A program made the position numbers and the translations under genes. A stretch of DNA of 29,257 nucleotides from a virus. Shown here piece after piece: positions 2,687-23,873 of the stretch (position 1 is its first letter; every line of letters begins with the position of its first letter). The notes beneath the pieces are model-generated. The model saw only the letters and a program-made list of their open reading frames with translations. It searched no databases and had not been told where the DNA came from. The DNA is taken from positions 1 to 29,257 of IMG/VR virus record IMGVR_UViG_3300046009_003418, one strand, 5' to 3'.

Positions 2687-2787
2687 TGCGTAGCGTTGTC
2701 GGGTGGGTATTTATCGTGCTGATGATCATGTGGATGCTGCTTATGCTTATGAGCGAGCCGATGTTTAATGGGGTCTGGTTTCTTTGA
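2686..2787 (+). CDS. tiny single-pass membrane protein, 33 aa
   Basis: ATG 2686 overlaps the annealase stop (TAATG) and the TGA at 2785-2787 overlaps the TTG start of the polymerase, so the frame is tightly nested in the operon. The product is almost all hydrophobic: VVGWVFIVLMIMWMLLMLM spans residues 4-22, preceded by Arg and followed by the short tail SEPMFNGVWFL. This is a single transmembrane helix with a likely cytoplasmic N-terminus. The role is unknown; it could be a small membrane anchor or a lysis/superinfection factor. The exact stop/start overlaps at both ends are the main reason to believe it is real. Confidence 0.5.
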   Translation: MRSVVGWVFIVLMIMWMLLMLMSEPMFNGVWFL

Positions 2788-3722
2788 TTCTTGCTATTGA
2801 CACTGAGACAACTGGTGTTGGCTGGTACGATCAAGCCTTCATGATCAGTGCTGCGACTGGGGATTTCACTCGCGTGTATGATCAACGCTCAGTGTCTAGT
2901 GCTGCGTGGGAAGATGTAATTGAGGAGACGGTTATCAGCCTGTGCGAGGCTAAGAGTATCATTATGCATAACGCGAAGTTTGATATTCAAAAGTTGTGCA
3001 GACTAGGCGTCCCGCTCAGTATCTTCATGGATACTTCGCGTTGGGAGGACACGCAAGCGATTGCGCATCTCATTGATGAGCAACAGTCTACTGGGCTGAA
3101 GTATCTTGCGCGTACTGTGCTTGGCGAGGAGACTGACGAGGACGAGGTACTTAAAGTGTGGCGGCGTAAGAATAAGATTAAGAAGGATGAGGGGTATTAT
3201 CCTATTCCCTATGATATTCTCGCGCCGTACGCTGCTAAGGATGCGGAGTTTACGCTGCGACTCTACCAAGAATTGTGGCCGCGTTTCCCAGAGAGCCTCT
3301 ACGAGTTGTATAATACTGAGAAGAAACTGACACTCGCATTGCTCAGCATTGAAACGTGTGGTTTTAAGATTGATAATGAGTATGTTAGTGCTAAGCGTAA
3401 GGAGTATGGTGATCGGATTTACAAACTTAAGTCTAGTATTGGGAAGATTGCTGGAAAAGACTTCAACCCCCAGTCCCACCAGCAGGTCCTTGCCGCCCTC
3501 AAACAGCGAGGAATCAGAGTTGATTCGACTTCAAAGGAGACTCTTGCGGGGCTGGATGATGAACTAGCCCAACTGATTCTAGAGTTGCGTGAGGCTAATA
3601 AAATCAAAGCAACGTACTTTGATGCTCTTGCTGAGGAGGCTAAGCAGGGCTTGTTGCATCCCAACTTTCGTCAGCACGGCACGAGGACTGGTCGTATGAG
3701 TAGTGGGAGCGCAGAAGCATGA
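2784..3722 (+). CDS. DNA polymerase A, N-terminal half (3'-5' exonuclease and thumb)
   Basis: A 312-aa protein starting at TTG 2784. It has the proofreading exonuclease of family-A polymerases: ExoI AIDTETT (residues 4-10), ExoII HNAKFD (62-67) and ExoIII YAAKDA (149-154). The start of the polymerase domain follows (EKKLTLALLSIETCGFKID, then DFNPQSHQQVL). It ends with the conserved GTRTGRMSSG (299-308), then SAEA and a TGA whose bases overlap the next ATG. The family sequence should continue through NxQNIP into the palm and fingers; that remainder is encoded separately at 4829-5569. No 5'-3' exonuclease domain is present, as is usual in phage enzymes. It presumably associates with the C-terminal half to form the replicative polymerase. 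Confidence 0.85.
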   Translation: MILAIDTETTGVGWYDQAFMISAATGDFTRVYDQRSVSSAAWEDVIEETVISLCEAKSIIMHNAKFDIQKLCRLGVPLSIFMDTSRWEDTQAIAHLIDEQQSTGLKYLARTVLGEETDEDEVLKVWRRKNKIKKDEGYYPIPYDILAPYAAKDAEFTLRLYQELWPRFPESLYELYNTEKKLTLALLSIETCGFKIDNEYVSAKRKEYGDRIYKLKSSIGKIAGKDFNPQSHQQVLAALKQRGIRVDSTSKETLAGLDDELAQLILELREANKIKATYFDALAEEAKQGLLHPNFRQHGTRTGRMSSGSAEA

Positions 3723-3919
3723 GCGACAAAACTCAACACCAAGAAGCGCAAGAACTGATTGATTGGACGAGAACCAATGGTGATCCCGGATGGGTAACCA
3801 ACAGATCGGTTATCGGACTGTTCAGTGTGATTTGTGAACTACAAGATCGTCTTGATGCTATTGAAAGACGCTTTTCCGCAGCGACTAATGCACTAGAAGA
3901 AGGACAAACAAATGATTAG
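3719..3919 (+). CDS. hypothetical protein in the polymerase cassette, 66 aa
   Basis: It begins at ATG 3719, overlapping the polymerase stop by 4 bases (ATGA), and ends 8 bases inside the glycosyltransferase gene. The sequence is polar and helical, with a heptad-like segment (VICELQDRLDAIERRFSAAT) suggesting a short coiled coil. No family is recognised. Codon use is richer in A and C than the T-ending codons of the surrounding early genes. Confidence 0.55.
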   Translation: MSDKTQHQEAQELIDWTRTNGDPGWVTNRSVIGLFSVICELQDRLDAIERRFSAATNALEEGQTND

Positions 3920-4682
3920 TATTATCACACCTACCTACGAAACTAGTCCTGATACTCTTGCGCGAACATGGAATAGTCTAAAGAATCAGACGTACTGGCC
4001 GTGGGAATGGATCGTCTGGGATGACTCGTATACCACAAGTACGTGGTCACAAGTCTACGGTTTCTGCTCTGATGAGCGATACAATATCAGTCTGTTTCGT
4101 AGTCACGTACATTCTGGTATCATCGGACAGATCAAGCGTTGGGGTTTCATGGTAGCCAGTGGCGACATTCTCGTGGAGTTGGATCATGATGACGAGTTGA
4201 CTCCAAACGCACTAGAAGAGATTAACAAGGCGTTTAAGGATGCTGAGGTTGGTTTTGTTTATTCTGATTGTAGTGAGATTCATCCTAACGGAGAGTCGCA
4301 TCGTTACCCTGAGGGCTGGGCGTTTGGTTATGGCAAAGAGTATTATGATGAGGAGCATGGCTTGTGGGTCATGCAAGCACCAGAGATTAATGCTACGACT
4401 CTAAGTCATATCGTTAGCGTACCCAATCATGTACGCTCGTGGCGCGCTAGCGTGTATCACGAACTCGACGGCCATAATCCCACGCTGCGAGTTGCTGATG
4501 ATTACGAGTTGATCGTACGTACCGCTCTGCATACCAAGACAAAGCATATCAACAAGTTGTTGTATAAGCAGTATATTAATCCTAATTCTGCGCAGCGCGT
4601 ACATAATGCTGAGATTCAAACACAAGTTAAGCGTATTAGCGAGCAGTATCATGATAAGATCAGAGCCGTGTTTGATGTTTGA
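3912..4682 (+). CDS. GT2-family (GT-A fold) glycosyltransferase
   Basis: A 256-aa protein opening with the family-2 nucleotide-sugar binding signature ISIITPTYETSPDTLARTW (residues 2-20) and LKNQTYWPWEWIVWDDS (23-39). The metal-binding acidic motif follows in GDILVELDHDDELTPNAL (84-101), and a probable acceptor/catalytic acidic segment (VADDYELIVRTA) lies near residue 200. No transmembrane helix or signal peptide is seen, so it should act in the cytoplasm, transferring a sugar from a nucleotide donor. The acceptor is unknown: modified DNA bases, a virion protein or host glycan precursors are all possible. It starts after AAGGACAAACA and overlaps both cassette neighbours by 8 bases. Its position inside a polymerase gene is highly unusual. 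Confidence 0.85.
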   Translation: MISIITPTYETSPDTLARTWNSLKNQTYWPWEWIVWDDSYTTSTWSQVYGFCSDERYNISLFRSHVHSGIIGQIKRWGFMVASGDILVELDHDDELTPNALEEINKAFKDAEVGFVYSDCSEIHPNGESHRYPEGWAFGYGKEYYDEEHGLWVMQAPEINATTLSHIVSVPNHVRSWRASVYHELDGHNPTLRVADDYELIVRTALHTKTKHINKLLYKQYINPNSAQRVHNAEIQTQVKRISEQYHDKIRAVFDV

Positions 4683-4851
4683 TGAGGACGAGTGGGACTT
4701 GTACCTAGTTAACATGCAGGATTTGACAACTGGCGAAGAAGTTGGTAAAATGTGGCCCGTATACGCAACCAACTATGATCATGCTATTAGTATTTACCAA
4801 CTGATGCTGATGATTTGCGAGGATAATAGTGAACGTTCAGAATATTCCTAG
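4675..4851 (+). CDS. hypothetical protein in the polymerase cassette, 58 aa
   Basis: ATG 4675 overlaps the glycosyltransferase stop by 8 bases (ATGTTTGA). The sequence MFDEDEWDLYLVNMQDLTTG followed by KMWPVYATNYDHAISIYQLM looks like a small alpha/beta fold; no family is recognised. Its final residues (about SERSEYS) are read from the beginning of the polymerase C-terminal gene in another frame, giving a 23-base overlap. This suggests the original end of the gene was lost when the cassette joined the polymerase sequence, or that the overlap is used for translational coupling. Confidence 0.5.
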   Translation: MFDEDEWDLYLVNMQDLTTGEEVGKMWPVYATNYDHAISIYQLMLMICEDNSERSEYS

Positions 4852-5569
4852 AACACAAAAGGATGTAAAGCGTGCCTTCGTACCGAAACTTGACGCATTC
4901 TTATTCTTCGACTACAAAGCGATTGAGGTCCGTCTCCTCGCATACTACCTTGCGGCAGCAATTGGTGATGATTCGCTGGCTACCGAAATTAATAATGGTG
5001 CGGATCCCCATGCTAATACCGCGCGGGGACTCTACAACACTAACGAGGTATCAGACGAGCAGAGGCAAGTTGGAAAGACCCTAAACTTTTCTATCATTTA
5101 TGGTGGTGGTACTCCCACTATCATGCGACAATTGGGCGTGTCATTCACTGAGGCTCGACGCTTGTTGAAGGCTTATCATGATACTCGTCCCGGCATTAAG
5201 CGACTCAACCAGAACATTGGCGAGACACTACTAGCAAGGGGTTATATTCAAAGTCTCTATGGTCGGCACCTGCACGTTCAAGAAGAGCACAAGGCACTGA
5301 ACGCTCTTATTCAAGGCTCTGCCGCAGACCTCATGCGGGATAGTGTAGTGCGCGTATGGGAACGCCTCCTTAACGGAGACTTCATGTCGCACATGGTGAA
5401 CATTGTACACGACGAGATTATCATTGATGCGGATAAGGAGGAGATAAACACTCTAGTTACTCTCATTCCATCGCTAATGGGGAATAAAACCGTAGAGAAA
5501 TTCGTTAATATAGATACTGATTGTGAAATTTCCTACACGAATTGGGCGGAGAAAAGTACGTATGAGTGA
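4829..5569 (+). CDS. DNA polymerase A, C-terminal half (palm and fingers)
   Basis: A 246-aa protein that begins in the middle of a conserved polymerase segment (NVQNIPR at residues 2-8). It has motif A DYKAIEVR (28-35, catalytic Asp28), motif B RQVGKTLNFSIIYGGG (79-94, the O-helix Arg, Lys, Phe and Tyr-Gly) and motif C VHDE (193-196, catalytic Asp195), plus NALIQGSAADLMR. All polymerase catalytic residues are therefore present. It is read from GTG 4829 with GAGG 6 bases upstream; an in-frame TGA at 4811-4813 blocks any extension into the cassette. Phe81-type dNTP selection cannot be judged by eye. It should pair with the product of 2784-3722. Codons end in C more often than in the flanking genes. 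Confidence 0.88.
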   Translation: MNVQNIPRTQKDVKRAFVPKLDAFLFFDYKAIEVRLLAYYLAAAIGDDSLATEINNGADPHANTARGLYNTNEVSDEQRQVGKTLNFSIIYGGGTPTIMRQLGVSFTEARRLLKAYHDTRPGIKRLNQNIGETLLARGYIQSLYGRHLHVQEEHKALNALIQGSAADLMRDSVVRVWERLLNGDFMSHMVNIVHDEIIIDADKEEINTLVTLIPSLMGNKTVEKFVNIDTDCEISYTNWAEKSTYE

Positions 5570-5801
5570 TGATGTGAATAGTCCCGCGCATTACACGCAG
5601 GGCAGCATGGAAACTATCGAGGCTATCGAAGGTCTTAACCTTAATTATCATCAGGGTAACATCATTAAGTATGTTAGTCGGTATAATATGAAGGGCGGTA
5701 TTCAGGATTTGCAGAAGGCTCGCTGGTATCTTGATAGGCTGATTCTATTGGAAGAGCGTAAGATTTGGAAGGAGAAGGATGCTGATGGCAGTCGCCGGTA
5801 G
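5562..5801 (+). CDS. DUF3310 family protein (T7 gp1.7-like)
   Basis: 79 aa, starting at ATG 5562, 8 bases inside the end of the polymerase gene. The core VNSPAHYTQGSMETIEAIEG then YHQGNIIKYVSRY and GGIQDLQKARWYLDRLI is the characteristic DUF3310 pattern, with the conserved HY, KY.R and KA.WYL residues. This domain occurs in T7 gp1.7, a nucleotide kinase, and in many phages, usually near replication genes. The full T7 protein is longer, so kinase activity here is not assured. A role in nucleotide metabolism is consistent with the neighbouring polymerase and the ribonucleotide reductase. Confidence 0.8.
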   Translation: MSDDVNSPAHYTQGSMETIEAIEGLNLNYHQGNIIKYVSRYNMKGGIQDLQKARWYLDRLILLEERKIWKEKDADGSRR

Positions 5802-5925
5802 CATTAAGAAGAACAAGTTGGAGCGCAACAAGGAGAAGATCCTTGAGCGTGGTAAGAAGAAGATGGAAGCAAAGCAGCGCCGTCAGGAGCGCAAGTTGAA
5901 AGAGAAGAATAATGCGGGTACTTAA
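5785..5925 (+). CDS. small lysine/arginine-rich protein, 46 aa
   Basis: Starting at ATG 5785 after a GGAGAAGG ribosome-binding site, this frame overlaps the DUF3310 gene by 17 bases and the endolysin gene by 14. The product is one long, extremely basic helix (KKNKLERNKEKILERGKKKM, then QRRQERKLKEKN). The family is unknown; nucleic-acid or ribosome binding is a reasonable guess from the charge. The coupled position and good ribosome-binding site support it being expressed. Confidence 0.5.
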   Translation: MAVAGSIKKNKLERNKEKILERGKKKMEAKQRRQERKLKEKNNAGT

Positions 5926-6658
5926 GTTGACTAGTCCCTATACTAAGGGCAAGGATGTGAAGACTGCTCAGCGCGCGCTGGCTAGTGTTGGTGCGTGGGT
6001 TGGTAAGATTGATGGTGTGTTCGGCCCTACCACTGCTGCTGCTGCAAAGCAGGCTAAGTGGATGATTGGGTATCGCCAGCAGAATTGTACGCAGACGTAC
6101 GAGCCTCTGCTGCATTCGTTCCTTACGGGTAAGAAGAAGCCTAGCGCGTTGATGCGGCGGCGTGCTGAGCGGCGTAAGAAGTCGTTTGGGCCTATGCGCG
6201 AGCGCGCTCTGGCTGAGAGTGTCAAGTGGATTGGCACGAAGGAGAATCCCCCTAATTCTAATAAGGTGATGTTCTCTGATTGGTATGGTCTTCGCGGGCC
6301 TTGGTGCGCTATGTTTGTGACGTGGTGTTATACGAAGGCTGGTAGTAAGGCGTTTGACCCTAAGAAGTCTAGGTGGGCGTATTGTCCTTTTATGGTGAAT
6401 GATGCTCGCGCTCAGCGCAACGGGCTTATCGTTGTTCCCGCTGATCGTGTCCAGCCGGGAGACATTGCCATGTTTGATTGGCAGGGCGATGGCACTAGTG
6501 ATCATGTTGGTATTGTAGAGACTAAGCCTAATAGTAAGGGCGCGTTCAAGTGTATTGAGGGGAATACCTCTACGTCCAGTGATAGTGACGGCGGGCAGGT
6601 AATGCGCCGTGATCGTAATAAGAATCAGGTTCAGGTTTTCATCCGCGTCGTGGAGTAG
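5912..6658 (+). CDS. endolysin: peptidoglycan-binding domain plus CHAP domain
   Basis: 248 aa, two-domain. Residues 10-54 match a PG_binding_1 repeat (GKDVKTAQRALASVG, GKIDGVFGPTTAAAAK). After a basic linker, residues about 95-248 form a CHAP cysteine amidase/peptidase: GPWCAMFVTWCY places the nucleophile at Cys132, DHVGIVE gives the catalytic His198, and IEGNT around 216-219 supplies the polar partner. Related enzymes cleave peptidoglycan amide or peptide bonds. No signal peptide or SAR helix is seen, so it should need a holin to reach the wall. Unusually, it lies among + strand replication genes, whereas the holin candidates are in the opposite late unit. A Gram-positive host is suggested. 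Confidence 0.87.
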   Translation: MRVLKLTSPYTKGKDVKTAQRALASVGAWVGKIDGVFGPTTAAAAKQAKWMIGYRQQNCTQTYEPLLHSFLTGKKKPSALMRRRAERRKKSFGPMRERALAESVKWIGTKENPPNSNKVMFSDWYGLRGPWCAMFVTWCYTKAGSKAFDPKKSRWAYCPFMVNDARAQRNGLIVVPADRVQPGDIAMFDWQGDGTSDHVGIVETKPNSKGAFKCIEGNTSTSSDSDGGQVMRRDRNKNQVQVFIRVVE

Positions 6659-9484: not shown

Positions 9485-10251
9485 TGAGGGTTGACACTAC
9501 TGATAAGACTCGTTTTGAGTTTGGGCTGGAGAAGCCTCTGATTCTTCGTGGTGATTGGGCTGTGACTGCTGACTGGCACGTCCCACTGTACGACGCTAAA
9601 CTTGTTAACGAGTTTCTTGACGAGGCAGCCGATTATAATAATCTTCTCATTGCTGGTGATTATCTGAATGGTGATAGTCTTTCCCAGTATTATCCTAAGC
9701 AGAAGAGCGCTGGTATTGAGAAGGAAATCTCTGAGGCTAGGAATCTTATGGAGATTCTTGCCGCTAATTTCAAGCAGATCGTATTCCTAAAAGGAAACCA
9801 TGATTATAGGTACGTGAAGAGTGCGGAGTATCGGCAGGATTTTGTTAGCGCAATGCAAGAAGTATTCGCTGGCATTGACCTTAATGGCTCTCGCCTTAAG
9901 TTTACTAACCTTGATCATGTGTATATTAATAGTAATGGTGAGAAGTATTTTGTAGCACACCCGACTTCTTACTCTAAGAATCCGCTAGTTAATCCTAACA
10001 ATATTGCTACTGTGCAGAAGTGTCACGTGCTTACTGCGCATACGCATCATTGTGCTATGGGGTGGGATACTAGTGGCGAGTATATTATTGGAGAATTGGG
10101 TGGCTTCTTTAATATTTCTCAGACGGAGTATTTGCAAGACACGACAACGTATCCTAACTGGTGCAATGGTTACTGGTTTATTACGCGGGGTAAGGCGGAT
10201 ATGGTGTCGTATGGTGCGCGTAGTAAGCGCATGATTGGTCGTACTCGCTAG
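9481..10251 (+). CDS. calcineurin-like metallophosphoesterase
   Basis: 256 aa with the ordered metallophosphoesterase motifs: DWH (residues 31-33), AGDYLNGD (58-65), KGNHDYR (104-110), VAHP (158-161) and TAHTHH (185-190), which together bind two metal ions. Known phage members act on phosphodiesters or nucleic-acid ends; the substrate here is unknown. The start may be ATG 9481 or 9484 (tandem ATGs), overlapping the upstream stop by 4 or 1 bases. The TAG stop at 10249-10251 shares its last base with the first base of the tRNA-Leu gene, so tRNA processing must cut exactly after the coding sequence. Confidence 0.85.
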   Translation: MMRVDTTDKTRFEFGLEKPLILRGDWAVTADWHVPLYDAKLVNEFLDEAADYNNLLIAGDYLNGDSLSQYYPKQKSAGIEKEISEARNLMEILAANFKQIVFLKGNHDYRYVKSAEYRQDFVSAMQEVFAGIDLNGSRLKFTNLDHVYINSNGEKYFVAHPTSYSKNPLVNPNNIATVQKCHVLTAHTHHCAMGWDTSGEYIIGELGGFFNISQTEYLQDTTTYPNWCNGYWFITRGKADMVSYGARSKRMIGRTR

Positions 10252-10332
10252 GGGCCGTGGTGGAATAGGCAGACACGACGGACTTAAAATTCGTTGCCTT
10301 CGGGCGTGAGGGTTCGATTCCCTCCGGCCCTA
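10251..10332 (+). tRNA. tRNA-Leu (anticodon UAA)
   Basis: A class II tRNA. The acceptor GGGGCCG (10251-10257) pairs with CGGCCCT (10325-10331) with one G-U pair, and discriminator A is at 10332. The D-arm is GTGGAATAGGCAGACAC, the anticodon loop CTTAAAA gives UAA (reads UUA, and UUG by wobble), the variable arm is GCCTTCGGGC and the T arm is GAGGG-TTCGATT-CCCTC. It is wedged between the metallophosphoesterase stop and the ribosome-binding site of the reductase, and could mark or create an mRNA processing point. Confidence 0.94.
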
Positions 10333-13460: not shown

Positions 13461-16400
13461 CTAATCAAGCCTACCAGAAAGAATAGCCTCAACACTAGCA
13501 GGATTAAAACCCTTAGGAATCCTAGGCTTCTCATTCTCCAACTGTTGAAGCACACGAGCAACCAACGCAGGATCAGCATCCTGAAACGCAGGCAACCAAA
13601 CATTAAACACATAATCACGCTTATACTGCCAATTACGAAGAGCATTCGCAGTCTTTAACTGACTACGACGATCATTCAACTTAAATTCCTCATACAACAC
13701 GCCACGCCTATCATACTCCCTAGAAATAGCATCCCCCAACTGCTCCTTATCAAGACTATACACAGGAACAAGCGTCGAATTTACAAACCCCGCCATAGAA
13801 CGAGTAGGAAACTTCGTAGAAAACTTAGGCTTAGGAACACGCAACTTAGAATTAGGATCAAACGGATCCCTAAGAATATCCTCAGGATTACTCACACCAC
13901 GCAACTCATTCAACCCAACACTCGTCTTAAACAAACCAAGACCAATACGAAGCGGAGGAAGCGTCTCAAAAGAATCAAACGCCGCACTCAACAAACCCTG
14001 CTCAGGATCAACAGGCGCACCCGTCAACAAACTACGCCCAAGAGACTGTTGAATAGCCAACTCAATAAACGGATTCGTAATCTCAAACACACCCGAATCA
14101 GTACGGAAATTACCGCCACGAGTCAAACCAGCCACCATCTCAATAATATTACCAGTCGTACCAAACGGATTAATCAGCCCGAATCCCAAACGATTATCCT
14201 TCTCAGGATCCAACCCAAGAACCTCAGCAACAACCTCCGGCATAGGGATAGACTCCAACAACCAATCAGGCAAACCGCCCTGCTCAGCAATAGTCTCATA
14301 CCCATAATTACCAATATTATACAACGTATTAGCAGTAAGCGGACGCTCCTGCACCATACGCTTAGTAAACAAAGCCGAATGCCTAGTCCAAGCATAAAAC
14401 GGCACAGCATAATCACGAATAAGCCGCTCAGTATAAGAAAAATCACGATAATTACCACTAACCATATCAGCCGTATGACGCAACTCGCGCAAAAACAACG
14501 GATCAAAATCAAGACTACGAGGATCACTCAACAAATCCATAGCAGCATGAAACTTCGTAACCGTAGTATAACCCATCTCAGGAATACCCTCCATAGCCCG
14601 CTTAGCAACCTCAGGAGAATTCATAAAATCCTTAAACCCCGGATAATTCATAGCCGCCTCGCGAATAATAGCCACCCGGAAATTCTTCTCAATAGCCATA
14701 CCCACCGTATAACCAAACGTAGCCACCTTACGAGCCTTACTATCCATCTTACCCAGCGTTTTAGCAGCATCCTCACCATAAATCTGATCCTCAAACTCGC
14801 GAATAAAACGATTAAGAATAATATCATAATCCATACCATGATTCTCATAAGGATTAACCTCAATACCCTTACGCCAACTACTACTAATCGTAGCACGCGC
14901 ACGCTTATTCAACGAATACTGCAAGAACCTAGCCATAATATGACCAGCCTGCATAGGATTCATAATCATCATCATAACCATCGTACCAAAAAACTGTTGC
15001 GTAACAAACCGAGGATTCAACGACAACGCAAACAACTTAAACGTGCTCGTAGCACCTCGCATAACCTTCGTAGCAAAAATATTAGAACGATTATACGAAT
15101 CCCGCAAATTATCAGCCAAACCACGAGGAATAACCATAATCAGATTATCAGCATTATTATAATTAAGATCAGCCAAATCAGCAAACATAGCCTTCTGCCA
15201 CTCACTAGCATCCACAAGACGCTGCTCACGAGCCTCCTTTAACGCATACGACGTAGAATCAAGGAAACTCATACGAGTAACATACTTCGTCTGACCATTA
15301 ACAACATACTCGATAATAGCCTCATCACCCTCAAGAGGAGCACGCACACGTTCACGATCAATATACCTCTGCGCAGCCTCACGAGTATCATGCACAGCCA
15401 TAGTCCTAAGCGCCTCATAGCCACCCTTAAAACGCTCAGCCTGCTCACGAGTAATAAGAATAGCATTCTCATGAATCGTATCCTCAATATCACTCTTAAA
15501 CCTACGATACGCAGCATTACGCAAAGCAGCATAATGAATATCCAAATTAAAAGACATTAAACCACTAGACGCAATAACATTACGATTGATAGCCTGAGCA
15601 AACGATTCGCGACTACCCATCATATTCTTAATATGCACCTTATCCGTAAAATCACGCGCATTAGGGAACAACTTCATAGCAAAATTAAGCGAAGCCCTAT
15701 TTAACTGCTCACTCAACTCGGACATATCCGAATCAATACCACGCTTACCAGCACTCTTAGGCGAAGTAGCATACGTATCAATAAACTCGCCATCACCAGT
15801 ACGCAAATCATCCGTACCACGCTTACTCTTAACAAAAGCCTCAGCAGGAAGCGTCAACGGCCTATCATCAATAAGACTACCATCACGGTACGTCCGCTCA
15901 GTATCCTTCTCAAACTGGCCCCTAACACGCAACCGCCGACCACGAACAAACTTACGACCAGCAACATCAAAGACACTATCCACCACAAACAATGGCGTAT
16001 TATCAACCGTCCTAAAACTCGTATCAGTACCCAGATAAGCAACACTCTCACGAACCTCATCAATAACACTCTTATACAAAGCATCATCAGCGCCCTCAAT
16101 ATCCTGCATAACAGAACGCAAATTACGCCCCTCACCATCAGGAAGATCCGAAACCTTACCAGTCTCAAGAAAATGATAACCACCATTCAACACGCCAATA
16201 CGATCCGTAACCTCAGCCGTTTCAAGTTCCTCAAGCATATCCTCATCCAAAAGACGAGCAGCATTCAAAAACAATTGGTTCCTAAGCGTCAACTCGCGAG
16301 CACTAAGCGCATCCATTTCAACACCAGCACGATGCCGCATAGCCTCATTCTTAGCGCGAATACGCTCAGCAGTAGTACGCATATTCTTACCACGCGCATC

Positions 16401-19400
16401 AACAGGCGCACCCTCATCGCCAAGCGTATGAATCTTAGCATAAGCAGCCTCATACTCCCTAAGAAACTCTGGATCTTGATAAAGATCAGCCTCTTTCTGC
16501 GTTAACACAAGAACATCATCCGTCTCGTCAACACCATCCTTACGCATCCGCTCCAACTTACCCAACGAAATAGCAAGAAGATTACCCGGAGAAAACATAC
16601 GACCACTAGCATAATTCATAATAGCCAACTGCTCAGCATCCGTAAACTCTTGCGCATTAGCAAGAGCCTGATGAGCCGCCTGCTCACGCAACTCGCGCAA
16701 CAACATATCCGCATCACCAAAAGGATTACTCTTCAAAGCATTAGCATACCGCAAATTAAAACCAATAAGAGGCATATTAACCAGCACACTATCCGGCTTA
16801 CGACGAGCAACGCCCTTCTGAATAGTAAACATAAGATCCTGCATACCACGCGCAATAGGACTACCCGCCCTACGACGAAGAGGCCCACCACTAGTTTCAA
16901 TAGCCTCAATCTCCTCCATGCTAATACCACGCCGACCAGCCTCGCGCGCAATAACCTCATTAAGCGCCTTCGCATCCTCAGGCGTACCATCAGGATACAC
17001 ATCACGATAACTAAACGCCGTATAACGAGGACTAAACCACGCAGCAACACGATCCATACGACCCGGAGTATACGAACTATTAAGCCCACCATAACCCTTA
17101 GGCGTCAATTGCACAAGACGATTATACGCGCCCTGATCACCCGTTAACGCGGCACGCTGAGCAGCAGCAAACTTTCTAGCGCTAACAAATCGCACAGGCT
17201 TACCACTATTCAACTCTTCCAACAAGCGCACAGCCTCAGCGCCACGAGCAGTAGGATCAAACTTTTCAGGCTCCCAAAAAACACCACGCTCAGTAGAAGG
17301 AATAGAAAACTCTGGCTCCGTCTTTTTAAGCGCCGCCTGCCAATCAGTCTTATTAATCTTACTCGTAACAGCCGCAATACGCGCAATCTGCGCGCCACGC
17401 GCACCAGCACCAATAACAGGAACCAACCCAAGAATATCCATAGCAGGCGCCCAAGGATCCATCAACGCAGACTCAACAAAATTAGCATCCGGGTCGCCCC
17501 AAATCTGCCCATAACGCTGAGCATAATCCTCAAGAATAGCCCGACCAGTACCCTTAGGATCAGTCACCGCCATATACATACCCATAGGCATACCAAGCGC
17601 AGCCCTAATAGGCGACTTAATCAAATTATCCCTAAACGCAGCACTAAATACCGTATCAGTCTTAGTAGCCGACAAAGGCCCCTGAGCATCAGACAACATC
17701 GTAGCAACACTACCAACCGTAAACTCTCGACCCAACTCTTCAGGCGTCATCTTAAACGCCTTAGCAAGCCCCTCACTAAACGTCACATCATCAGCATTAG
17801 CGAAAACACCAGCAGCAGCAAGACGATTAATATACCCGCCCGGACCAATCCCCGGCCCAAACGTAGTCTGCCCAATTACATTAGAAACAGTACGACCAAA
17901 CCACGAACGCTGATCGCCCTCACGCTCAAACATCTCCTGCGCAACCTCGCCCGGAGTAATCTCCTTCTGCCAATCCTCAACCATACTAAGAATAAACGGA
18001 TCAACAGGAGCACCAGCATTATAAGCCTCCAAAGCAGAAACATACAACACGCGCTTATCCTCAGCAGACAACTCGCGCCGCTTACCCGTAGCAACATCCT
18101 CATAAAAAATCTGATTCAACACATCACGAGGAACAACACCACCAACACCAGAATCAAGCACAGCAGCCAAACGACGCGGCCACTCCTCAACAGGAAACAC
18201 ATTAACATACTGCCCCGTAGCCTCATCAAGACGACGGAAATTAGCCTCAGCCGTACCCTGAGCCTGCTTTAACTCTGCTTCGCGAGCCTCCTCGCGCTCC
18301 TTTTGATTCTGCTCAACAAGCGCAGCAATATTAGCCTCGTCGCGCCGAGCAACAGCCAAATCAGCAAACTCGCCATTCTTAATACCAAGAATACGCTCAG
18401 ACAACCAACGATTTTGAGCCTGCACATACGTACCCCCATCAAAAGAATACATATACTTCTTAAGATTATTAACATCTTTCTGATCAAAATTACCAGAATA
18501 AATACGATCAAGAAGAGCGCCACCACCAGACTCGCGAATCTTAGTCTCAATCTTACTAGTAAGAGTCTCATACGTATTTTGATCCTGTAAATAATCAGCC
18601 GCCATAGCACTATAATCGGGCGTTTCATCATCATCGCGACGAGGAATATCAACCATATCAAACGCAGCAGAACTAGGATCACGATTAACACTAACCGCGC
18701 CCGTACTACTACTAACCTTAAAACCAGCCGATTGAAGGAAAAAATCACTTAGAACAAGACGGCCTTGACTCTTACGCTCAACACGACCATCAGAATTAAT
18801 ACTAAAGTTATCAGAAAGAAACGTTTCCAAAGCAAGTCTATTAACCGTAGCAATAGGAATTTTATGCTGAGAATCCTTAGTTTTGCCATACGTAATAATA
18901 CCAGAAGCAATCATATCAGCAATATCTTGCTGAGACAAACCAAACTTCTTAGAATTATCAATAAACATAGCCGACATATTAAAACGATTATCATCAGCAT
19001 ACTTATCAATAGTACCAAGACGCTCTTCGCTACGACTCCAACTACCATTACTCAAATAATTACGCCACTGGGCGATTTCACCACGAGCATTAATTTCAGC
19101 AAAAGCAGACTTCTTAGCCTCGCGCTGTTGCTCAGTCCCTTCAGGCATCTGCTCAATAGCAATAATCGCATCAATAGCCGCAGACTGAGCAGGAAAACGC
19201 TCCTTATACGACGCGCCAACACCCTTCCAATACTCCATTTGATTACGCTGTTTATCGCGCCGTCTTTGACTAGACGCCTGAGCGGCATCAGCAGGATTAC
19301 GAGTATTAAGCCCCATAACATTACTGCCATACAACCCGCTTCCAGCAAAATCTGGCGCAGGCAAAATACCAGTCGCTTCAGTTCCAACAGCACCCAAATT

Positions 19401-19934
19401 ACCACTAGGATTAAGGCCCTTTTGGCCTCGTATATTAGCCATACGAGCCATACTATTTAAAGCCTTAATCCTATCAATAGGCGCCATCAGCGACGGATCA
19501 CCAGCAGCATTAGCAGCATTAATAGCATCCTGACGCTTCTTAGCATCCTCACTAAACGCCCTACTAATAGCAGGAACGGGCGATACGGTGCCCGGAGGCG
19601 GTGTACCCAAGGGATTAGCGTAATACTCCCTTAATTCGCGCTGACGACGAAACTCTTCTTGGCGTTGCAAATACGTAGCATACGCTGCGCGACGCGCTGG
19701 TTCTCCAAACTGCGCACGCCTACCAAGATCCGACATAGTGCTCGTATACGCTGGTCGCGTACCACGAATACCACTCGTAAGAGGCCCAGCAGGATTAGAA
19801 ACAAGCGCACCACTAGGGAGAACACTAGGCATCCTAAACCCGCCAACCTGTTGCTGAGGAACAGTCCCCGGCTTCTTAGGCGGCTTAGCCCCAGACGAGC
19901 CACCCGGCCCCAAATAAGGATTAGAAACAGCCAA
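13461..19934 (-). CDS. giant internal virion / DNA-ejection protein candidate, 2157 aa
   Basis: The largest gene here, from TTG 19934 with AAAGGAG 6 bases upstream. The N-terminal ~130 residues are Gly/Pro/Ser-rich and disordered-looking. The middle is mostly helical, with charged coiled-coil stretches (QNQKEREEAREAELKQAQG). Near residues 1634-1661 lies a hydrophobic segment (QQFFGTMVMMMIMNPM). Around residue 1840, RDYAVPFYAWTRHSALFTKR resembles a large-polyvalent-protein domain (LPD38-like) found in phage structural and ejected proteins. Size, position after the nozzle and fibres, and the membrane-active-looking segment suggest a T7 gp16-like ejectosome component, though much larger than gp16 (1318 aa). 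No lytic transglycosylase motif was found by eye. Confidence 0.65.
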   Translation of the reverse strand: MAVSNPYLGPGGSSGAKPPKKPGTVPQQQVGGFRMPSVLPSGALVSNPAGPLTSGIRGTRPAYTSTMSDLGRRAQFGEPARRAAYATYLQRQEEFRRQRELREYYANPLGTPPPGTVSPVPAISRAFSEDAKKRQDAINAANAAGDPSLMAPIDRIKALNSMARMANIRGQKGLNPSGNLGAVGTEATGILPAPDFAGSGLYGSNVMGLNTRNPADAAQASSQRRRDKQRNQMEYWKGVGASYKERFPAQSAAIDAIIAIEQMPEGTEQQREAKKSAFAEINARGEIAQWRNYLSNGSWSRSEERLGTIDKYADDNRFNMSAMFIDNSKKFGLSQQDIADMIASGIITYGKTKDSQHKIPIATVNRLALETFLSDNFSINSDGRVERKSQGRLVLSDFFLQSAGFKVSSSTGAVSVNRDPSSAAFDMVDIPRRDDDETPDYSAMAADYLQDQNTYETLTSKIETKIRESGGGALLDRIYSGNFDQKDVNNLKKYMYSFDGGTYVQAQNRWLSERILGIKNGEFADLAVARRDEANIAALVEQNQKEREEAREAELKQAQGTAEANFRRLDEATGQYVNVFPVEEWPRRLAAVLDSGVGGVVPRDVLNQIFYEDVATGKRRELSAEDKRVLYVSALEAYNAGAPVDPFILSMVEDWQKEITPGEVAQEMFEREGDQRSWFGRTVSNVIGQTTFGPGIGPGGYINRLAAAGVFANADDVTFSEGLAKAFKMTPEELGREFTVGSVATMLSDAQGPLSATKTDTVFSAAFRDNLIKSPIRAALGMPMGMYMAVTDPKGTGRAILEDYAQRYGQIWGDPDANFVESALMDPWAPAMDILGLVPVIGAGARGAQIARIAAVTSKINKTDWQAALKKTEPEFSIPSTERGVFWEPEKFDPTARGAEAVRLLEELNSGKPVRFVSARKFAAAQRAALTGDQGAYNRLVQLTPKGYGGLNSSYTPGRMDRVAAWFSPRYTAFSYRDVYPDGTPEDAKALNEVIAREAGRRGISMEEIEAIETSGGPLRRRAGSPIARGMQDLMFTIQKGVARRKPDSVLVNMPLIGFNLRYANALKSNPFGDADMLLRELREQAAHQALANAQEFTDAEQLAIMNYASGRMFSPGNLLAISLGKLERMRKDGVDETDDVLVLTQKEADLYQDPEFLREYEAAYAKIHTLGDEGAPVDARGKNMRTTAERIRAKNEAMRHRAGVEMDALSARELTLRNQLFLNAARLLDEDMLEELETAEVTDRIGVLNGGYHFLETGKVSDLPDGEGRNLRSVMQDIEGADDALYKSVIDEVRESVAYLGTDTSFRTVDNTPLFVVDSVFDVAGRKFVRGRRLRVRGQFEKDTERTYRDGSLIDDRPLTLPAEAFVKSKRGTDDLRTGDGEFIDTYATSPKSAGKRGIDSDMSELSEQLNRASLNFAMKLFPNARDFTDKVHIKNMMGSRESFAQAINRNVIASSGLMSFNLDIHYAALRNAAYRRFKSDIEDTIHENAILITREQAERFKGGYEALRTMAVHDTREAAQRYIDRERVRAPLEGDEAIIEYVVNGQTKYVTRMSFLDSTSYALKEAREQRLVDASEWQKAMFADLADLNYNNADNLIMVIPRGLADNLRDSYNRSNIFATKVMRGATSTFKLFALSLNPRFVTQQFFGTMVMMMIMNPMQAGHIMARFLQYSLNKRARATISSSWRKGIEVNPYENHGMDYDIILNRFIREFEDQIYGEDAAKTLGKMDSKARKVATFGYTVGMAIEKNFRVAIIREAAMNYPGFKDFMNSPEVAKRAMEGIPEMGYTTVTKFHAAMDLLSDPRSLDFDPLFLRELRHTADMVSGNYRDFSYTERLIRDYAVPFYAWTRHSALFTKRMVQERPLTANTLYNIGNYGYETIAEQGGLPDWLLESIPMPEVVAEVLGLDPEKDNRLGFGLINPFGTTGNIIEMVAGLTRGGNFRTDSGVFEITNPFIELAIQQSLGRSLLTGAPVDPEQGLLSAAFDSFETLPPLRIGLGLFKTSVGLNELRGVSNPEDILRDPFDPNSKLRVPKPKFSTKFPTRSMAGFVNSTLVPVYSLDKEQLGDAISREYDRRGVLYEEFKLNDRRSQLKTANALRNWQYKRDYVFNVWLPAFQDADPALVARVLQQLENEKPRIPKGFNPASVEAILSGRLD

Positions 19935-21791: not shown

Positions 21792-23009
21792 TTATAATTC
21801 GGCGCTTGCAGACCAAGCACCGTTTGTAACAGTCGCTGCCGTTAACGACGCTCTATATGGCGAAAAACCACGTTCCGTTATAGGCGACGCGGTTGGCGCA
21901 TAATCTGCAATTTTAGTAGTTGAATTATAATACTCCCAAGTACCAGCATTAGCAGTAATAGGATTATAAAAGGTTACAGTATGCGGAGCGCTAAGCATCA
22001 TAACCGGAAAACTTCTAAATTCACTATACGAATTTCCAACCGTTTGACCAACAATCCCTAACTCATTGCCAATTGCTGACGTATTATTTCTAGGAGGCTC
22101 ATTTAAAGGAAAACTACTACAAAAATATCGTTGACACTTAGCCAAGGTTATATTAAATGGCTCAAATTCATAATTAGTAGCAGCACTATTTTTCTCTAAT
22201 TGAACTCCAGTAACATACAAAAAATCGCCGACAGTTGTAGTAGTATCATCATTCCAAATAAACACAGCAACATTATTTGTGCTAGCCGTATCAAGCGAAG
22301 CACTTAAAGAATACCTGTCCCATGTACTAGTAACATTAAGATTACTAGGCGTATTTTCAGCAGTCCAACTACTAGCCCAAGTAGGGGTAGTGCCACTAGA
22401 ATTCCATGTACTAACAACATCACTAGTAAGACTATTAGCAGTACCAGTCCAAGCAAGAATAACAGCCTTAACATTACTAATACTAGATCCCGTTGTCTTA
22501 GCCCAAAAAGATAAAACAACAGTATTATTCTTTAAATGTTGTATATTTTCATTTTCAATAAATTGAATAATTCCAAACTTTTTGTTTGCGGTTTCAACAT
22601 CTAATCCACAAGAATACTTAAAATTAGCAGGCGCATCAGTGGCTTGTGTAACATCAACAGCATCATTACCATCACTAAGAAGCGTCCAACGGTCTAATAC
22701 ATATACGTCATCATTATTAATAAAAGTAGTTGTTGACGTAAAAGAAGAGCCTCTTTGTGAAATTACCATATTACCATTAATTATGGCGTTTCTATTAATT
22801 TCTGGTCCAATATCACCTTGAGGCCCTTGTGCCCCTTGCGGTCCTTGTGCGCCTTGAGGTCCCTGAGCGCCTTGAGGTCCCTGAGCGCCTTGAGGTCCGG
22901 TTCCCGGAATATTCTCCCAAACATTAGAAGTAGAATTCCACTTCCAACTAATAGAACCCACCGTAAACACCTGACCATTAGTAGGAGCATTAGGAAAATC
23001 AATAGCCAT
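21792..23009 (-). CDS. tail fibre / receptor-binding protein with short collagen-like stalk
   Basis: 405 aa. Residues 1-36 are a small N-terminal module common in phage fibres (FPNAPTNGQVFTVGSISWKW). Residues 38-69 are about ten Gly-X-Y triplets, mostly GPQ/GAQ. From residue 71 the sequence NRNAIINGNMVISQRGSSF introduces a beta-rich C-terminal domain of the kind (N-x-x-I-I-N-G-N-M-x-x-x-Q-R-G) found at the tips of many fibres, with carbohydrate-binding-like strands (VVLSFWAKTTGSS, TWDRYSLSASLD). It probably trimerises and contacts the host surface. The C-terminal part is more A+T-rich than the surrounding genes, consistent with exchange. Confidence 0.75.
   Translation of the reverse strand: MAIDFPNAPTNGQVFTVGSISWKWNSTSNVWENIPGTGPQGAQGPQGAQGPQGAQGPQGAQGPQGDIGPEINRNAIINGNMVISQRGSSFTSTTTFINNDDVYVLDRWTLLSDGNDAVDVTQATDAPANFKYSCGLDVETANKKFGIIQFIENENIQHLKNNTVVLSFWAKTTGSSISNVKAVILAWTGTANSLTSDVVSTWNSSGTTPTWASSWTAENTPSNLNVTSTWDRYSLSASLDTASTNNVAVFIWNDDTTTTVGDFLYVTGVQLEKNSAATNYEFEPFNITLAKCQRYFCSSFPLNEPPRNNTSAIGNELGIVGQTVGNSYSEFRSFPVMMLSAPHTVTFYNPITANAGTWEYYNSTTKIADYAPTASPITERGFSPYRASLTAATVTNGAWSASAEL
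22849..22900 (-). repeat. 18-bp tandem repeat encoding collagen-like GPQGAQ units
   Basis: On the + strand the unit GCGCCTTGAGGTCCCTGA occurs at 22849-22866 and identically at 22867-22884, with a third copy running from 22885 until it diverges near 22900. Each 18-base unit encodes two Gly-X-Y triplets. Flanking triplets are the same at protein level but diverged in DNA, so the perfect copies look like a recent duplication. Confidence 0.85.
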
Positions 23010-23015
23010 AAAACA

Positions 23016-23873
23016 TCACCCCCATACCGGCGTAGACTGAAAAGGATTACCAAACTGAATCCACTGCGAACTATTAGCATCAGTATAATACAAATACAAA
23101 CTACCATCAGTAGAATTAAACCAAGCATCACCATTATTAGGAGTTGAAGGCTTAGTATCGCTTACAATAAAACGTCCTTCTATTCCTTGTGGTCCTTGAG
23201 TGCCTTGCGTTCCTTGAGCGCCTTGTGCCCCCTGAGGTCCCGTTAACCCTTGTGGCCCGGTAGCGCCTTGAAAACCTTGAGGTCCTTGTGCTCCTTGAGC
23301 GCCCGTATCGCCTTGAGGACCCTGCGTTCCTTGTGGGCCAGTATCCCCCTGTGGGCCTTGCGAACCAGTATCGCCCTGCGGCCCCTGCGCTCCCGTGCTC
23401 CCCTGTGGTCCCTGAGGGCCCTGCGGACCCGTGTCTCCCTGTGGGCCTTGACTACCCGTAACGCCCTGCGCGCCCTGAGGGCCTTGAGGACCAGTATTGC
23501 CTTGAAAACCTTGGGGACCTTGCGGGCCTTGAGAACCAGTAGGCCCTTGAGCGCCCTGAGCGCCTTGCGCACCAGTAGCCCCCTGTGATCCCTGCGCACC
23601 AGTATTGCCCTGAAAACCCTGAGGTCCTTGCGAACCCTGCGCTCCCTGAGAACCAACCGCGCCCTGCGCGCCTTGAAAACCCTGAGCACCCTGAAAACCC
23701 TGCGGACCCTGAGGACCCTCAGGCAAACTAAAATCAAGCAGATCAACGCCCATTAACGAGTACGTACCATCAATATACTCAGCCAACTGCTGCACCCGCG
23801 ACGCAAGAAGAGACAGACTATCACTCCCAAGAGGATAAGGAAAACCATAATTACTAGTATAATCAACCGACAT
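23016..23873 (-). CDS. collagen-like tail fibre protein, 285 aa
   Basis: The start ATG 23873 follows AGGAGGTGATTT. Residues 1-52 form a tail-attachment-type module ([20 protein letters not shown], then helical [15 protein letters not shown]). Residues 53-233 are about 60 uninterrupted Gly-X-Y triplets, dominated by [15 protein letters not shown] and GSQ. Residues 234-285 form a C-terminal beta module ([20 protein letters not shown]). Gly-X-Y arrays form trimeric collagen-like rods without hydroxyproline in phage fibres. The final module somewhat resembles the N-terminal module of the next fibre protein. Together they probably form the host-recognition fibres on the short tail. Confidence 0.8.
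23175..23717 (-). repeat. collagen-like Gly-X-Y repeat region
   Basis: About 60 consecutive Gly-X-Y codon triplets (9-base periodicity) without an interruption. Many copies share the + strand cores CCTTG, CCCTG and GGNCCNTG but differ in synonymous bases, so the array is old or under selection against perfect DNA repeats. The near-repeats make this a likely site for slippage and length variation. Confidence 0.85.

Follow-up and report, generated by a model that had tools for sequence, protein, structure and literature searches.

The family A DNA polymerase of this virus is encoded by two separate genes, the split is permanent in the clade to which the virus belongs, and the junction of the two halves gains and loses genes, among which a GT2 glycosyltransferase is the commonest guest. 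The locus, analysed here in a window of 29,257 nucleotides (the whole stretch of viral DNA under study), is a variant of the split, cargo-bearing polymerase genes of phages. Split replication genes of phages tend to be interpreted as scars left by homing endonucleases; in the present case an entire clade keeps the split, and a gap that serves as a docking site for non-replication genes would show how an essential phage operon can take up accessory cargo. Our best reading, to which we assign a probability of roughly 60%, is that the junction of the split polymerase is a docking site for recombination or homing, and that its GT2 glycosylates collagen-like tail fibres built of G-X-Q repeats. If this is true, the structures by which phages recognise their hosts would gain a further example of post-translational modification. 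Split polymerases are already known (gp43A/B of T4-like phages and MEP401); a GT2 as cargo, and its link to collagen, appear to be new, as the open-access papers found mention neither a glycosyltransferase between polymerase halves nor its link to collagen-like fibres.

Layout and conservation of the split polymerase

The N-terminal half, PolN (2784–3722, plus strand; also assigned to phrog_17), combines a 3'-5' exonuclease (PF01612, 4e-18) with the first third of the polymerase domain (PF00476 positions 2–123), and its translation ends in TGRMSSGSAEA followed by a stop. The C-terminal half, PolC (4829–5569, plus strand), holds the fingers and palm (PF00476 positions 127–381, 1e-48), begins with VNVQNIPR and can be aligned to the Bst and Klenow polymerase I structures. 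Almost the whole polymerase domain is therefore retained, and the pair has the features of a split phage DNA polymerase of the gp43A/43B kind, with two adjacent genes and every motif present. Between the halves, on the same strand, lie ORF1 (s1; 3719–3919, 66 aa), the GT2 gene (3912–4682, 256 aa; PF00535, 4e-19) and ORF3 (s3; 4675–4851, 58 aa, acidic); ORF1 and ORF3 had no family match in profile searches. Successive genes overlap by 4 nt (PolN/ORF1, as ATGA), 8 nt (ORF1/GT2), 8 nt (GT2/ORF3) and 23 nt (ORF3/PolC). The first-pass annotation, which had described an intact GT2 flanked by two small orphan genes between the polymerase halves at 3719–4828, all joined by stop/start overlaps, is thus borne out by the reading frames and the profile match. 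A CHAP endolysin gene (5912–6658) and a DUF3310 gene (5523–5801) also lie within the replication operon, directly 3' of PolC.

Close relatives of PolN, PolC or both (about 61–80% identity) turned up on nearly 40 IMG/VR contigs, all of them metagenomic, and 30 contigs were examined including the window, with near-duplicates among them. The split point was identical in all 30, where TGRMSSG(A/S)AEA or a close variant precedes the junction and (M/V/I)NVQNIPR follows it. Because many independent assemblies show this arrangement, chance and assembly artefacts can both be dismissed. In four contigs (L019, L028, L030 and L032) the junction is empty and the halves overlap directly by ATGA or GTGA; as these are still split, the present-day split is independent of GT2. 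No unsplit close relative was present among the 30 contigs, and the nearest single-ORF homologue is 38% identical. Nearly all distant polymerases (about 21–38% identity, with a few partial or truncated matches set aside) run as one ORF across the split point. The polymerase trees, whose outgroups are too distant to fix the root, fit either an empty or an occupied junction as the first state. Profile matches to the aminoadenine polymerase DpoZ were under the cut-off and about equal to the PolA matches. Fusion of PolN and PolC by a -1 frameshift was considered for the empty alleles, where the reading frames permit it; a classical slippery heptamer was not seen, and the idea is inapplicable to occupied alleles.

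The retention of both halves and the conservation of their motifs suggest that PolN and PolC reassemble into an active enzyme. Translation at the junction is probably coupled, given the overlaps and Shine-Dalgarno-like motifs such as GGAG in the 3' end of PolN (3706–3709, 9 nt upstream of the ATG of ORF1) and GAGG upstream of the GTG start of PolC (4819–4822, from a motif scan). Similar motifs lie upstream of the gene immediately after PolN in 23 of 26 contigs and upstream of PolC in 19 of 26, compared with 12.5% of random positions.

Movement of cargo through the junction

Depending on the phage, the junction is empty or contains a single small gene, GT2 by itself, GT2 with small genes, or these together with an HNH gene (one relative), and gap lengths across the 30 contigs were -1, 169–187, 350, 763–766, 944–956, 1109, 1504 or 1942 nt. 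GT2 occupies the junction in 22 of the 30, and an ORF3-like small gene lies upstream of PolC in 11, the two varying independently of each other; an s3-like gene is the sole cargo, GT2-free, in L013, L027 and L036, and other small genes fill the junctions of L037 and L039. Homologues of ORF1 were confined to the window and a near-identical pair of contigs (L003/L004), at 98% identity. The three-gene unit supposed by the first-pass annotation therefore dissolves when sought in relatives.

The mobility that had been suspected of the cassette is supported by two lines of evidence. Between the window and L003, positions 3726–4085 (ORF1 and the start of GT2) are 99–100% identical in DNA, with zero synonymous differences in ORF1, whereas PolN is 61–84% and PolC mostly 61–67% identical outside this patch; a patch of this kind amid diverged polymerase genes indicates a recent cassette transfer between diverged phages. 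Across the PolN and PolC trees, the GT2 state changed at least 6–7 times (gains or losses). The PolN, PolC and GT2 trees are also mutually discordant, the expected outcome if recombination breaks at the junction.

One relative (L009) carries a 92-aa HNH endonuclease gene directly 5' of PolC (phrog_2255, 1e-21; only marginal in Pfam), and no close copies of it were found in the other loci compared. This gene (4601–4879 of that contig) sits exactly at the PolC start, and PolC there has ATT instead of ATG or GTG at the usual position, or else starts upstream inside the HNH gene. The earlier statement that a glycosyltransferase and not a homing endonuclease occupies the site accordingly holds for the window insert and not for the site as such, which can carry an endonuclease (1 of 30 contigs).

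From these patterns we propose that in the clade ancestor a cut separating the TGRxSS motif from NVQNIP would have turned one polymerase gene into two overlapping ones, whose products must come together again as a single enzyme. The junction would afterwards have become a docking site. A gene inserted here could be translated by coupling, because a ribosome-binding motif and an ATGA are both present in the 3' end of PolN, and the 3' end of the guest would usually provide the corresponding motif for PolC. Recombination between related phages would bring cargo in and take it out, at times with the assistance of a resident HNH endonuclease of the homing type.

The GT2 enzyme and collagen-like tail fibres

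With 69.6 bits against PF00535 (cut-off 23.3), the cargo protein of the window belongs to the GT2 family and is an intact putative enzyme. Its AlphaFold2 model (pLDDT 89) is one GT-A domain in which a membrane part is not evident. The best Foldseek match was the chondroitin polymerase K4CP (2z86; E 2e-15), followed by RmlT, TarS/TarP and SpsA, and a sequence-profile search agreed. These proteins share the GT2-type GT-A fold at about 15–21% identity and act on polysaccharides or teichoic acids; unlike them, the window GT2 is a single short domain. Residues D37, D38, D91, H92, D93, D94, D196 and D197 were invariant in 41 homologues, and by the general pattern of the family D91-H92-D93-D94 and D196-D197 presumably supply the DXD-type metal motif and acidic catalytic residues. 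The gene is under strong purifying selection (dN/dS 0.06–0.12 in five of six comparisons; the sixth, a near-identical pair with few changes, gave 0.35). Outside the clade, relatives at 60–68% identity are common in virus contigs, at other genomic places; one scan of cellular genome contigs yielded no relatives, and GT2 was found nowhere else in clade genomes whose junction lacks it.

The window encodes a collagen-like tail fibre of about 61 G-X-Y triplets, mostly G-X-Q (23016–23873, minus strand; PF01391 3e-31 and phrog tail fibre families), about 18 kb from GT2 and on the opposite strand, and beside it a further tail fibre whose collagen-like stretch is short, at 11 triplets (21792–23009, minus strand; PF01391 3e-4, under the cut-off; phrog_4492 tail fibre, 4e-40). 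Long Gln-rich G-X-Q collagen was present in 7/7 clade genomes with GT2 and in 0/5 without it (Fisher p 0.0013), absences being counted only in genomes that cover the fibre locus, since the records are partly fragments. The clade holds three phylogenetically independent GT2 contrasts, which are all concordant and too few for significance alone. Of the five genomes without GT2, four are devoid of collagen repeats, and the fifth (G012/L032) encodes a different, Thr-rich type of collagen. Two sister phages, L009 and L013 (records G002 and G004), are mostly 90–97% identical over about 24 kb and differ, besides a few other segments, jointly at the fibre locus and the polymerase junction, where L013 lacks three genes of L009: the GT2, the small gene upstream of it and the HNH gene.

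Outside the clade, PF01391 exceeded its cut-off in 26 of 33 records with GT2 and in 4 of 50 controls chosen by their polymerase (p 3e-11), one of the 50 having a partial GT2 match. Collagen-like fibres lay beside GT2 in 29/59 loci versus 0/82 control loci, the latter taken from the replication module and not position-matched; the GT2 homologue of S-CRM01 has no annotated fibre genes beside it. Selecting by collagen type, full-length GT2 was found in 6/47 GXQ-selected and 0/40 GXT-selected records (p 0.03). GXQ fibres thus do not need GT2, as 41 of the 47 do without a full-length copy, and conversely GT2 comes nearly always with G-X-Q collagen. Gln is the commonest Y residue (45–92%) in 27 of the 28 GT2-bearing records or loci tallied (the exception, L213, has 52% Thr and 24% Gln at this position), and the collagens of GT2-free phages have a Y position led by Thr or Asn.

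The window carries genes for tRNA-Leu(CAA), tRNA-Gln(TTG) and tRNA-Leu(TAA) (53–213 and 10251–10332), of which the Leu tRNAs are kept in relatives and the Gln tRNA is variable. A tie between the Gln tRNA and Gln-rich collagen was considered and no clear link emerged, with this tRNA in some genomes of either GT2 state. Where a large internal virion protein would be expected, the window encodes a protein of 2157 aa (13461–19934, minus strand) that had no Pfam or PHROGs match and whose relatives are only 25–46% identical.

Among the roles that the first-pass annotation had listed for the GT2, modification of virion proteins fits best because the gene tracks collagen-like tail fibres, and modification of DNA bases gained no positive support. 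On this genomic co-occurrence, which is an association and not an activity, collagen-like fibres are the most likely substrate. The soluble enzyme of the window would then most likely glycosylate the phage's own Gln-rich fibres in the cytoplasm, before assembly. Animal collagen carries sugars linked via hydroxylysine; the fibre repeats of the window contain zero lysine, which makes such a linkage unlikely here, and Thr, Ser, Asn, Asp or Gln are candidate acceptors. A 2OG-Fe(II) oxygenase homologue occurs near GT2 in 20 of the 59 outside loci (L173:5356–6000 and 19 others, in phages with collagen-like fibres) and was not found in the other loci of the comparison, and the two genes could possibly form a module for hydroxylation plus glycosylation. 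We hold more tentatively, at slightly under even odds, the fuller proposal of a fibre-glycosylation system in which a GT2, with or without this oxygenase, is specific for G-X-Q collagen, is encoded at the split-polymerase junction and is spread between phages by homing-type recombination. The co-occurrence provides a testable substrate for a common GT2 family, of which a pattern scan of the virus collection returned at least 599 matches.

Alternative explanations and known split polymerases

The GT2 might instead alter host surface glycans against superinfection, the collagen link arising only because both genes track receptor type. Its structural relatives RmlT, TarS and TarP glycosylate cell-wall teichoic acids, and receptor swaps could go along with fibre swaps; however, the association is specific to one collagen composition, the oxygenase found at roughly one in three of the outside loci points to protein modification, and the small one-domain model has no evident membrane part, which leads us to consider this explanation unlikely. 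Modification of phage DNA bases against restriction is improbable. It is a known role of some phage glycosyltransferases and would suit a gene within the replication operon, and DNA protection is among the roles suggested for a Planktophila phage glycosyltransferase (PMC10202952). Yet a scan of window proteins, from an incomplete genome, recognised no hydroxymethyl-pyrimidine pathway genes, outside the clade the homologues lie in tail-fibre modules, and when the GT2 was compared with other transferases, as the first-pass annotation had proposed, the best fold matches were the polysaccharide and teichoic-acid enzymes.

Regarding the split itself, the GT2 could be a mobile element, or part of one, that interrupted an intact polymerase, with the empty alleles as secondary losses that kept the split. 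This is rather unlikely, although the least so of the alternatives: the most divergent PolC relatives (L039, L037, L036 and L003) all carry some insert, under a root branching order that is not settled, and GCATGA repeats on either side of GT2 in several relatives would allow precise deletion. Against it, several alleles are GT2-free, some with the s3-like gene only, no unsplit close relative was found, and the trees do not fix the root state. The insertion event assumed by the first-pass annotation stands in part: mobility of the cargo is supported, but the annotation's own refuting observation, two polymerase genes that are always separate, is half borne out by the split in 30/30 contigs, four of them empty, irrespective of GT2. 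A self-splicing intron or intein carrying GT2, with the polymerase spliced to full length, is highly improbable. Such elements favour conserved polymerase sites, and an intron was raised by the authors of MEP401 for their split polymerase (PMC10580990); however, the insert is almost all coding with little space for a ribozyme, positions 3300–5300 gave no Rfam match at E<=5 and no ribozyme core was recognised. Protein-splicing domains were likewise not seen, PolN having too few residues beyond TGRMSSG for an intein domain, and the four empty alleles remain split.

Our preferred reading, a docking site in a permanently split polymerase, has parallels in known systems. The T4-like Aeromonas phages 25 and 44RR encode their PolB as two proteins, gp43A and gp43B; phage 25 has the seg43 endonuclease gene at the junction, another relative has a non-coding spacer, and the phage 25 halves co-purify and are active (PMC2988022). 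The present locus likewise encodes a replicative polymerase as two genes and has an endonuclease at the junction in one relative; unlike it, the T4-like enzyme is an unrelated family B polymerase with endonuclease or spacer as cargo, where mainly GT2 and small orphans are found here. The freshwater actinophages E7 and F5 of Planktophila also encode a glycosyltransferase, whose role was guessed to be DNA protection or superinfection exclusion, and their hypervariable fibre island codes for collagen-like proteins; the accessible part of that report proposes no link between the two and does not mention a polymerase insertion (PMC10202952). The Methylophilales phages MEP401 and MEP402 (Zobellviridae) have a family A polymerase that is split, with PF01612 and the N-terminal part of PF00476 in one ORF, the C-terminal part in another and a small orphan ORF between (PMC10580990). 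Unlike the present junction, that of MEP401 holds no GT2, and its PolC is only 24% identical. The MEP401 split is independent, because its cut lies further downstream, after SSSSPNLQNFDGEIKTLFLSRYGE, and this suggests that the part of PolA around both cuts is a repeated splitting site. In MEP401 (L525:6111–8221), the cut is about 20–25 residues downstream of that in the window clade, with the small orphan at the junction.
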